From Ulota crispa (Eukaryota > Streptophyta > Bryopsida > Orthotrichales > Orthotrichaceae): a DNA stretch of 64,000 nucleotides. Below the pieces are notes generated by a model that saw only the letters and a list, made by a program, of their open reading frames with translations, was not told where the DNA came from and made no database searches. A program made the translations under genes and the position numbers. Numbering within the stretch: the stretch's first letter is position 1; each line of letters starts with the position of its first letter. The stretch is from the NCBI GenBank assembly GCA_963920765.1, contig OY987243.1, positions 23,183,419 through 23,247,418 on the forward strand, read 5' to 3'. Below, in pieces: positions 37,610 to 42,720 of the stretch.

Positions 37610-40600
37610 TCAGACGGTGGGAGCCACGGAGCGGTGGTAGTGCACAAGCTTCCAGTCCATGAGGCCGGTGTCGTCACTCCGGAGTCGACGCCACACTCCC
37701 GTCTCGTTGAACGCTTCCAGGGCTCCTCCCTCGTTGGGACGGTTTTCCTGATTTTTCAGCACGCGTGTGTAGACCACCAGCGCCACGCCCGTGCCAAGGA
37801 GCGTCACCTTGGGCGCCACCACCGTGGACCGCAGTCTCTGCGACAGTGAAAGCCGCTCTGTGGCTTGGCCCAAGTTGAACTTGAAGTTGCGTAGATCCAT
37901 GCCTTCCACAAGCTGACCTGCACCGCGCATCACAAAAGATCTTCACATCTCAAAACTATGAGCATTTTAAAGCTATGAACATCTCAAAACGGCATATTCA
38001 TGATTGGTGTCAGTGGAAAGAATCTAGCGAAGGTTGTATCTATATTTGTTTTGAAACAAATATTGACATCTGATGTAACCCTTAGAAAAGTCAACGTTCA
38101 TTATGTGGATGATGAATAGACAAATTCAAAACAATTTTGGGTTATCATAGAACTCTTATACAAGTGATAAAGATGTACTTCATATTTTGTGCTAGTAGTT
38201 GTAATGGTTATTGCATTATTTGCATGCAATTTATTTGCCATAAAAGAAACATTTCTACAATGTCCTTTGTCACTTTTTAGGATTAAGAGATGTGTTAGCA
38301 AGGGTCTTAAATACAAATCTATACACAATCATTGGACTAGATTCACTTTGCTAGATCACTCTTACCATATACTTTAAGTGTGAAGGGGTTGTAAGGGATA
38401 TGCTCTTTTCCCAAACCAATCAATTAATAGGATAGTGCGCACAAAAATGTGGCATTAGTCAAACACATCCATTTCTTGTTAGTGGATGAACTTGATTTTT
38501 ATTGAGATTTTATTAGCAACTGCAAGAGGATTCAATTGCATTTTAATATGTACTATTTGATACCATACGAGTAAACTATTACGCTAGTAGAAGCAGCTTT
38601 GGCACATTGCTATGGCACAAGCTTGCTCTTTGAGTACCAATCTACTCAAGCTTCTTTGCACAACACGTGCTTCACTACAGAGTTCAAATATGGCCAATAC
38701 AAAGGCCTCTCTCATTTGCTACTTGGCAATGTATTATAAGTTTTCAATATACTTCCTAAAGGTGTATTGAACAACGACTCTAGGTTCTTAATGTTTAGAT
38801 TGTATACATCCTCACAACACAATTTAGGCAATAATATGTCAGCGGATGCCATTAAGTAAGGGCTAGAATTAGGTCCCCTTACAAAAGCACGTATAAACAC
38901 AAGCAACTACAAAAGTCAAGTTTTAAAAAGTTTACAGTACAAAAGCCTACTTACACGGGGCTGGAATTTGGCAAAGCAGTATGTCTGCTCATCACTACAC
39001 TTTTTCTTATCTATTCAACGTTAGTAGCATCAATGTAAGCAATTTTTTTACTACACCAATCATCTAACACCCACCTACTTGGAACCAATCACATAAGAAG
39101 TAAATACTTTTCAATCTCATAATGTATATCCATGCAACAAGAAGAATAATGTTAGCTCAAAGACCATTGTGGATGAAAAATCTATTGGGAATGTTTCTAT
39201 AATTTACGATATGATAGGCGCTAGTAGACTGTACTGTACAGTACTAAATAGAATGAAGGTTGTGAAGGTACCTTGAGATTGAGGTTCAAAAACCGTCACT
39301 GCAGGGTGGCAGTAGCGCTGGTATGTTTTGTAGTTGCCCGTGTCCAGGCCTTCCAAGAGGTCAACAGTTGCTTGCATAAGCTCTTCCTGTTGGAAAAAAA
39401 AAACTAATTAACGTGGCACATAAACTTCGACCTTCAACCTGCCAAGGCAATAAAACTCAACCGTTGATGGTAAAGGGCGTAAATGTGAGGATAGTGTAGC
39501 ATACTATTACAATACAGAAAAGTAGCAAAATACCGGAAGAGAAGAAGAGGGTCCTGCACCTGTACAATAGGGTCAAACAAGGGTTGAATTTGAGCAAAAA
39601 CTTCGTTGACGGGCATTAACCCATTAATCTGCACTCCAGCATCACAATTAGCATCCAGCTCGTTTCTTTAACCTTTTTTGAAAATATTTAAGTATATATT
39701 TTAAATTTCTATTCCTCATGTTTCTTGTTCATGTAGTCGACTACAAGCCAGATTTAATGCAACAAAACAGTTCTGCCGTTTTTAAGAGCTGAAAATGCAA
39801 CAAGGAAAGAGGAAGAAACTGACATTCACAAGTGAATGCAACTCAGAAGAATCACAGATAACTCTTTACCTTATGTACCGTAGCGATAGATTCATAGTGT
39901 TTGATAACAGGCAACGTGGATTCATTGAATACTTTGAACCGCTTGCGTATGGTTTCAATATTATCATCATCTCGACCCTGTTGAGTCATCATTCGAACAA
40001 AACCAAACCCTTGAGAGATTTAGTATGCTAATGTTAGTGTTCTAGAGTCACTGGAGATTCTGGCACTCGCATCTAAAAAGAAAGAAGCAAAATAATGCAT
40101 TAAAATAGATGCACAAATACAATGGATACGTGACCCAAGGGCATCAGTCGATTTAGTGAGAAGGGTCTAAGGTATAAGAAGAAATCTCTGATTAAAAAAT
40201 AGCAGATTCCTGTAAAGCAAATCCGAGTAAAAAAGGGCTGGCGTGAGAAGAGCTTCCATAGCCGTTTGGATTCCAAGACACTTAATTCTCCATAACCAGT
40301 TCTTGACTAAAGCGGCCAACGTGGCTCACTCTCATTAGATCCCAGGACATTGGTTTAGAATTAGTAATCAAACTTTTGGACAAACACATATGCAAAAAGA
40401 TGTTGAAGGATTGAGGGAGCACATATTCACTACTACACAACTCCTAAGGTTTTTTAGGTTTGCAGGATGAGAAAGAAGAAAACCCTCGTTGAATCTTAAT
40501 AAGAGCAACTTTTTGATTGACACATGGCTGGTGAGGTTAAAAAAGTAACTGAAACGAAATCAGCTGCAAAGTTCTCTTCCAATGGAATAAATAAAAATTT

Positions 40601-42720
40601 ACATAGGTACCTCATTGCGGCTTAAAACTCGTCTTTCCATCTCCTCTTCTGAACCAGTGATGAAGAGAATAAATTCTGGTTTAAGGCCCGCCTGTCAAGT
40701 ACATTCATGTGAAGTTTTAGAAAGATTTCGGCAAAAAAAGTTTTAGATAGATAAAATAAAATGCAAGGGTAGTTCTTTGTAACAAATAAATCTTGAAAAT
40801 AAGATTATATGATCAAAGAAGAAATGGTTACATACCACACGGTCCCAAACTTCTCGATTCTCATCGTTCCTTGGAAAGCCATCAATCAGAAACTTATTGT
40901 TGGGGCTATCCGCGATTGCTTTCAGAATTAGCTTCACAGTCGTTTCTGATGGCACTAATTTCCCTTCCTTGATCATACCTTTGATCATATTCCTGGCACG
41001 TTTAGAAAGTAAAGTAAAAATTATGTTTATGAAAGACAAAATAAAAAGAAGGTAATATCACTTGATCTACTACTTGGATCCATAACCAGTTCTTGCGTAA
41101 AGTTTGTCAACGTGGCTCTTTCTCATTAGATCCCGGACATTAGTTTAGAGCTGCTAATCAAGCTTTGCAGAAACAAATATAGAACAGGTAGTTGAAAGCT
41201 TGAGATAACACAACATTGCCCCATTGTGCTCTAAGACCCTATTAAGATTGCTGGTTTTACATGGCCTCATTCATAGCCAATAAACGGCTCCAGAAAAAGC
41301 CTATTTACCTAATACTTTCATTATACTGCAAGAAATGAGAAAATAAAGCATCTGCATTGAAAGTTTCTAGTGCAAATTATAAATAGCTTCAACTATTTGA
41401 GATTGATGGTACACAACGCACATATTTCAAAAAACAGATGAAAAAAGCATTATTCTTACCCCATTTCAGTGTCAGAATTCTGCTCAATACGCAGCAAATC
41501 ACCGGCACTGAGGTGCTCAAATCCGAAGTTTTCTACAATCTTGGTACATTGGGTGCCCTTCCCACTTCCAGGCCCACCTGAGCAAAACCAGATTAATGGC
41601 GTCAATATCAGAATGATAAACATTTCTGAATTCACTCAATAGCTTTCAAAAGTCATTATGAACAAGGTCATAAAGGCTCGAGGAAAGCAGTTCTATGTGT
41701 ACTTCCTCTAGTGAAAAGTTAAACCATATTACTCTGTGGTTTTGTGGTCCTCCAACTTTCAATGACAAAGTCCTTTACACTAATTGCACATAGAAAAGTT
41801 CCTCTCTGAAGGCTCGCCATCAATTATATAAATCTCAATGTGAGTTTAGACCACTAGTTCAAACTACTAGACAACAGAAAACAGAAGAAATATCAAAAGA
41901 GTAACTTACAACCAACAAATAACTTTACCAGGTATACAAAAAAATAGAATTCCTGAAGGTCCACAAGCACTAGGCTACAAATAGACTGTGGGTTGCAAAG
42001 TATTCAACCGATGTAAGATCATTATACAGTTGGTGGATTTCTTTCCATAATCATAGATTTAGTGACGGTGAAAACAACTGGCAGTGTCCACAACGTCTCT
42101 TTCTCTCTCACAAAAACAGAGTTGTTAAAGATTGCTCAATAAAGATCTCTCCCCTAATTATTACATAATGGGGAGGGCTTTTTCATTTTCTAGCCAGGTG
42201 TCGAAACAGGCCTAAGAGAGGAGATCTGGAGGTTGTAGAGATCTCTAGGATATAGGGAGTAATTGAAGTTTTAGGTATGATAATAAGGAATATACATGCA
42301 GCTTTGAACAAAGCCAAAGTGCATAATGCCAGCAAGAGGGAAATGGTATAAACATCTACTTAAACCTATGGTTATGATAGATATTGACACTCACCTGTAA
42401 CAAACACCAACTTCAAATTCTTCGACCTTGCTTTTGACGTTTCTGCAGCAGCGACCGATTTCTGCACTTGCATTCCAAGCAATGAGTAACCATTTGACCA
42501 AATAACGAAGTGAACAGCAACTAGCTAGTTTTACAACATCAACCAAAATATTCAGAAGATAGCATGAAGTCAAAAGTTGCAAAATCATAAAAAGAACATC
42601 CTGCAAATCCCTGCAGTAATGCCCAAAGCTTGGGAATGAGTTCCAAATCAGAGGTCCTACGCTTACCTTGGGATCCTGAGGCCCAGCAGCCCTAGGCTGG
42701 GATGCCGTAGACGATGCCAT
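37610..42720 (-). CDS. UMP-CMP kinase fused to a CaMKII association (hub) domain, 9 exons
   Basis: Exons: 42720-42667, 42461-42395, 41577-41460, 40992-40836, 40691-40611, 39977-39870, 39628-39560, 39386-39272, 37917-37610. They sum to 1077 nt (358 aa) with every GT-AG junction in phase. Residues 1-40: short leader and beta-1. Residues about 36-218: a complete UMP-CMP kinase, which transfers phosphate from ATP to UMP/CMP, with P-loop GGPGSGKGT (Lys47), [26 protein letters not shown], the UMP/CMP-type [13 protein letters not shown], and a short lid [14 protein letters not shown]. Residues 219-358: a complete hub domain ([53 protein letters not shown] at the C-terminus), the fold that assembles CaMKII into 12-14-mers. 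The domain boundary coincides with a phase-0 intron. No protein-kinase domain or calmodulin segment is present. There is no obvious transit peptide, so it is probably cytosolic. Confidence 0.9.
40280..41215. repeat. Pair of ~150-bp direct repeats in two introns of the kinase-hub gene
   Basis: About 40285-40430 and 41075-41215 share CCATAACCAGTTCTTG, CAACGTGGCTC, TCTCATTAGATCCC and GGACATT(A/G)GTTTAGA. One copy lies in the intron between exons 5 and 6, the other in the intron between exons 3 and 4, so they bracket exons 4 and 5. Confidence 0.8.

Follow-up and report, generated by a model that had tools for sequence, protein, structure and literature searches.

Fusion of a UMP-CMP kinase domain with a CaMKII-type hub domain in the moss Ulota crispa

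CaMKII is known as the memory kinase of animals, whereas UMP-CMP kinases make the building blocks of RNA and DNA. In the accounts considered here, the hub (association) domain appears as part of CaMKII, as an orphan single-domain protein or as iota-carbonic anhydrase. Stand-alone hubs of bacteria and algae are described as 16- to 20-mers (PMC8985225), and the dimer is regarded as the ancestral assembly module (PMC9120016). Iota-carbonic anhydrases also fall under the Pfam label PF08332 (PMC8119650), and plant MKK3 MAP kinase kinases carry a C-terminal NTF2-like domain (PMC5177658). In the current study, a stretch of 64,000 nucleotides of Ulota crispa DNA (hereafter the window) was found to encode, on its minus strand between positions 42720 and 37610, a protein of 358 residues in which a UMP-CMP kinase is followed directly by a CaMKII-type hub.

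As in CaMKII, the hub of the window protein lies C-terminal to the kinase and the residues of the vertical dimer are largely kept. Unlike CaMKII, it has a nucleotide kinase in place of the Ser/Thr protein kinase domain, neither a calmodulin-binding regulatory segment nor a linker was found between kinase and hub, and the lateral contact residues F394 and Q436 are changed. Calcium/calmodulin control of the CaMKII kind would have no place between such domains, as had been proposed in a preliminary description made from the DNA alone; the N-terminal tail lies outside this comparison. The whole kinase domain and its motifs are shared with UMP-CMP kinases (TIGR01359; Dictyostelium 1qf9/2ukd, human 1tev and the plant UMK type), but the solved members among the matches listed have 194–214 residues, too short for a second domain. 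The stand-alone hubs of bacteria, archaea and algae have the same domain, but in three prokaryotic cases (loci L001, L002 and L004) the open reading frames (ORFs) are too short for a kinase. Iota-carbonic anhydrase has the Pfam label in common with the window hub (PMC8119650), and MKK3, likened by description (PMC5177658), also joins a plant kinase to a C-terminal NTF2-like domain, although that kinase is a protein kinase. The C-terminal half of this UMP-CMP kinase paralogue of the moss lineage is a CaMKII-type hub, and we consider it reasonably probable that the hub assembles an ordinary UMP/CMP kinase into oligomers.

The fused gene and its junction

The nine exons splice into 1077 nt (358 codons and a stop) with unbroken phase, and the gene takes up 5.1 kb of DNA for this coding content. 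All eight introns are GT-AG, with phases 0, 1, 2, 0, 0, 0, 0 and 1. At E 0.001 or better, six Pfam families matched the window protein, protein kinase not being among them; the kinase is PF00406, which covers residues 39–189 (E 9.7e-44). The profile for UMP-CMP kinases, TIGR01359, matches residues 37–213 (225.4 bits against a cut-off of 207.6; profile positions 2–184 of 185). Base binding in these enzymes involves the GFPRN motif, next to the P-loop and the GR-DDN motif of the LID, and all three are present in the alignment to 1qf9 and 1tev. The domain extends further, to residue 217, since solved UMP/CMP kinases align that far on the model of a homologue (P0001) with the same numbering in this region. 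By sequence, this is a complete UMP-CMP kinase domain with intact motifs, and it would be expected to phosphorylate UMP and CMP in the ordinary way. In the second half, PF08332 covers residues 219–356 (E 8.1e-18; 65.2 bits against a gathering cut-off of 22.1; profile positions 3–128 of 128), which leaves no linker. The preliminary description, which had put forward nine exons, a full kinase, a full hub and a linker-free phase-0 boundary, was right on each of these points. Exon shuffling, which it also suggested, would fit a boundary in phase 0 but remains a hypothesis.

A search of 5.8 billion proteins with the hub half gave 281 candidates. Six were significant, and all six carry both Pfam domains, with PF08332 above its cut-off and a hub 71–86% identical to that of the window. 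Two have names, Ceratodon purpureus M758_9G089800 (P0002) and Physcomitrium patens 'UMP-CMP kinase 3 isoform X1' (P0006); the others (P0001, P0003, P0004 and P0005, of which P0003 is partial at its start) are encoded on contigs of 1093–1608 nt. In addition, a 181-residue frame on a contig of 1150 nt (P0007) contains a kinase tail and a whole hub. Because the fusion recurs in six of six significant matches at this level of identity, it is real and conserved, and neither a chance product nor a local assembly error. Of the checks named beforehand, those for matches to both PF00406 and PF08332 and for the same architecture in related plants came out in its favour, and sequences from other organisms cross the join of exons 7 and 8 on contigs too short for the introns.

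It is very improbable that two neighbouring genes, each with its own transcript, were joined in the gene model. Beyond a phase-0 boundary exactly at the junction nothing speaks for such an artefact, and it was rejected since contigs too short for introns encode the fused protein across the junction. Moreover, the junction is free of gaps in eight of eight sequences (the window and P0001–P0007), and, read back from exon 8, the hub's own frame meets a stop after eight codons without an intervening ATG. The short contigs are most simply taken as spliced transcripts, so that both halves of the fused protein are probably joined by splicing. Retention of intron 7 would give a protein of 259 residues and retention of intron 8 one of 278, neither with the whole hub, and skipping of exon 8 would shift the frame. 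The features of the gene are as follows.

42667..42720, minus strand: exon 1, start codon ATG and residues 1–18 of the variable N-terminal tail; donor AAG/gtaagc
42395..42461, minus strand: exon 2, remainder of the tail and first strand of the kinase, reaching the beginning of the P-loop; ends in phase 1
41460..41577, minus strand: exon 3, P-loop GGPGSGKGT and beginning of the nucleoside-monophosphate (NMP)-binding region; PF00406 from residue 39
40836..40992, minus strand: exon 4, NMP-binding part with GFPRNDENR (alignment to 1qf9)
40611..40691, minus strand: exon 5, kinase core (spliced gene model)
39870..39977, minus strand: exon 6, LID motif GRDDDN (alignment to 1qf9)
39560..39628, minus strand: exon 7, final strand of the kinase and its C-terminal helix, to Q218 (the alignment of solved UMP/CMP kinases reaches residue 217 of the P0001 model)
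39387..39559, minus strand: intron 7, phase 0, exactly between kinase and hub, after Q218 (spliced gene model)
39272..39386, minus strand: exon 8, first part of the CaMKII hub, with TVFEPQSQ; PF08332 from residue 219
37610..37917, minus strand: exon 9, remaining hub and stop codon (PF08332 and CaMKII alpha matches)

No second copy of the kinase or hub half was detected in the 64-kb window by tblastn, which returned the exons of the gene itself and one match at E 1.8. Introns 3 and 5 have a diverged repeat of about 135 bases in common (window 41079–41212 and 40289–40423), with a local score of 116 against a maximum of 32 in 200 shuffles; an ungapped repeat finder missed it. This repeat may represent either a dispersed element or the result of an internal duplication.

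Relatives of the two halves and distribution of the fusion

In the six complete fused proteins, including that of the window, the kinase has exactly 187 residues. Pairwise identity over the 15 pairs was 79–94% for the kinase, 73–86% for the hub and 42–71% for the N-terminal tail, which suggests that both domains are under constraint. No further fusion was found among the 281 candidates of the hub-half search, which needs shared exact 5-residue words. Among the best 120 of 7766 matches of a kinase search, five carry PF08332, all five already known from the hub-half search. The restriction of the fusion to mosses is provisional; the protein searches rely on such exact words, and liverworts, hornworts and other plants remain possible carriers. 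The architecture is already in public databases under a plain kinase name, and both domains are textbook. As to the novelty claimed in the preliminary description, no account of the fusion was found in open-licence literature (titles and abstract openings, among the matches listed), but the fusion is not unique to Ulota crispa, since moss orthologues are already deposited.

In a kinase tree of 28 rows, the six fused kinases and a further protein, P0033, formed one clade (100/100) on a stem of 0.72 changes per site. This clade stands apart from the canonical land-plant UMP kinases in the tree, including an unfused copy from Ceratodon (P0112); for the outgroup, the program warned of long branches meeting. 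P0033 has 220 residues, no hub and the P-loop GSGKS, and it ends in PIVQAS, two residues beyond the sequence PIVQ at the exon-7 boundary. It may be a hub-less isoform, a case of hub loss or the state before the fusion; the branch that would set the fused rows apart from it has weak support (74/70). Such a protein would also fit a different role for the hub, namely targeting of the kinase to another partner or compartment, or mixed assembly with other hub proteins, with the hub-less isoform or paralogue providing free kinase. The label isoform X1 of the Physcomitrium entry, which suggests that others exist, points the same way. However, no complete stand-alone hub was found in a hub-only search, where five of six matches have 94–113 residues and correspond to the exon-9 part of the hub only, the sixth being P0007 with its kinase tail, and we regard this role as highly improbable.

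By sequence, the nearest solved structures of the hub are CaMKII hubs. The match to CaMKII alpha (1hkx) has an E value of 2.3e-17, and the 19 PDB sequences matched by the hub, as a single sequence (E up to 0.001) and as a profile (E up to 1), are CaMKII or CaMKII hubs by name, except for two named 'Predicted protein' and 'Hypothetical protein K11E8.1d'. Two arginines, R433 and R469, which we take to be the cavity arginines of the CaMKII hub, are kept in eight of eight moss-type hubs. Their conservation would be in line with a bifunctional protein, in which the NTF2-like domain would add another catalytic activity or a pocket for a ligand, for example in the manner of an iota-carbonic anhydrase. 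The membership of iota-carbonic anhydrases in PF08332 (PMC8119650) and the catalytic activity possible in NTF2-like domains (PMC5177658) argue in the same direction. Nothing on the cavity residues was found in PMC13095473. Against a second activity, no carbonic anhydrase by name was among the PDB sequences that the profile of moss-type hubs matched at E 1 or below, where the presence of iota-carbonic anhydrase entries was unchecked. In addition, R453 is G and H395 is R in eight of eight hubs, two positions presumably belonging to the GHB pocket. We consider a bifunctional protein unlikely to a high degree, and an assembly function of the hub is preferred.

A pattern search of bacterial and archaeal species genomes with a wider alignment gave 15 prokaryotic loci. 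In L001 (Planctomycetota), L002 (Thioglobus) and L004 (an archaeon), the matched stretches score 92.9–129.7 bits against PF08332 and the ORFs have 123–163 residues, while L006–L013 look like other NTF2-like proteins. At L015 (1308–2177), an acidobacterial ORF of 289 residues resembles, by eye, two tandem NTF2-like units. The patterns of the moss-type hub alone detected no relative in bacterial or archaeal genomes or in IMG/VR, and the wider alignment matched nothing viral; a close prokaryotic or viral source of the hub was rejected on these grounds. In a hub tree of 15 rows, the moss-type hubs group together (99/99); their branch is long and its attachment unresolved. With a program warning that long branches might be meeting, this tree does not fix the origin of the hub. 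The rice protein Os01g0753200, a candidate hub at most, is annotated 'CaMKII association domain' and is given as a RACK1A partner in yeast two-hybrid (PMC4883712).

Oligomer interfaces and predicted structure

The vertical and lateral contacts listed for the CaMKII alpha hub in PMC11199487 were mapped on eight moss-type hubs, and the letters at its 15 contact positions agreed with the CaMKII numbering used. Of the vertical contacts, H466, H468, T452 and S470 are kept in all eight and T378 in seven; in the window hub, five of the six vertical-dimer residues (H420, H466, H468, T378, T452 and S470) are kept, H420 being T. Of the lateral contacts, F397 and V389 are kept throughout, while V or L takes the place of I434 and V that of L415. 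In the window hub, F394, Q436, I434 and F397 correspond to L, K, V and F, and the patch L438, P444, L385, L415 and V389 to Q, a gap, Q, V and V; at these nine lateral positions two residues are identical (F397 and V389), three are conservative, and four are changed or missing. From these residues, the hub very probably forms at least a dimer and is likely to be an oligomer, the assembled shape of which is only predicted. A closed ring appears slightly favoured, our estimate having been lowered a little because of L438, P444 and the prokaryotic control described below. Its size is not fixed, since assemblies of 16 to 20 subunits occur among the hubs of algae and bacteria (PMC8985225).

In the AlphaFold2 model of P0001, the helix of residues 202–234 is continuous (predicted local distance difference test, pLDDT, of 94, 91, 90 and 83 by block), so that the last helix of the kinase and the first helix of the hub are predicted to be one. 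The models are of a single chain, and the rigidity of this link is a prediction only. After three prokaryotic hubs and a kinase had been brought into the alignment and one fragment removed, the mean pLDDT of the hub was 78.6. A fold search with the full model by two programs returned adenylate or UMP/CMP kinases in all 50 top rows of each, and barely probed the hub half.

In the proposed mechanism, an active UMP/CMP kinase would be presented in many copies on the hub. The copies would be held together by the hub, at the least pairwise in the vertical dimer and probably in a ring with 12 or more subunits, and the continuous helix would fix the kinase domains rigidly on it. Such a scaffold may resemble that of CaMKII in clustering and in cooperative or assembly-dependent behaviour, without calmodulin, regulatory segment or flexible linker, and its advantage could lie in stability, local concentration, cooperative control or anchoring. 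It is possible, at somewhat less than an even chance, that mosses have evolved a ring-shaped pyrimidine nucleotide kinase, with 12 to 20 UMP/CMP kinase domains mounted rigidly, through a continuous helix, on a CaMKII-type hub. A metabolic enzyme would then have captured the CaMKII scaffold independently, and assembly instead of calcium would set its activity or localisation.

Several observations weigh against the proposed mechanism. The lateral contacts ranked highest by mutagenesis are F394 and Q436, the alanine mutants of which most strongly disassemble CaMKII alpha (PMC11199487); F394 is L in eight of eight moss-type hubs, and Q436 is K in seven, with Q in P0007. The prokaryotic control hubs L001, L002 and L004 keep F394 in three of three cases and Q436 in two of three (F397 likewise in two). 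Furthermore, L385 is Q in all eight moss-type hubs, L438 is kept in four and P444 in none (three gaps; the alignment is unsure there), and the vertical residue H420 is T or S throughout. The hub as a whole is divergent and shares 46 of 124 aligned residues with CaMKII alpha. Identity to the CaMKII alpha hub is higher in the bacterial stand-alone hubs L001 (55 of 122) and L002 (58 of 119), which indicates that the moss-type hub has diverged considerably. In a first model from a shallower alignment, the mean pLDDT of the hub was 67, with 68 and 63 in the second half of the helix, and the clade of fused kinases has a hub-less member.

These changes also bear on a simpler, rather unlikely assembly, a dimeric UMP/CMP kinase in which the hub joins two chains by the conserved vertical interface without ever forming a closed ring. 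The vertical contacts are largely kept, F394 and Q436, ranked as above, are replaced in eight and seven of eight hubs, L438 persists in some hubs only and P444 in none, and the dimer is the ancestral module (PMC9120016). On the other hand, F397 and V389 are kept, I434 and L415 are replaced by V or L and by V, and the change of F394 to L is conservative. In addition, the contact of F394 with Q436 is made through the Q436 backbone (PMC11199487), so that lysine might substitute there. The 12–14 subunits of the preliminary description were not established, given the 16- to 20-mers of stand-alone hubs (PMC8985225) and the changed F394 and Q436. The substrate channelling suggested there found no supporting evidence.

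Neighbouring genes and biological meaning

Three other parts of the window gave matches. On the minus strand, an uninterrupted frame of 819 residues (12939–15398) with I9, S8, PA and fn3_6 domains is a plant subtilase-like gene, and positions 9838–10257 gave a weak GDSL lipase match (21.4 bits, under the cut-off of 23.6). On the plus strand, frames between 55672 and 59690 resemble exons of a FAD-dependent monooxygenase-like gene, PF01494 matching the last frame only (E 1.8e-9).

An unrelated kinase joined to a hub would mark this domain out as a portable module for oligomerisation. The fusion would be a natural test of hub function without calcium/calmodulin control and without a flexible linker, and mosses, including the genetically easy Physcomitrium patens, would gain a distinct pyrimidine kinase.

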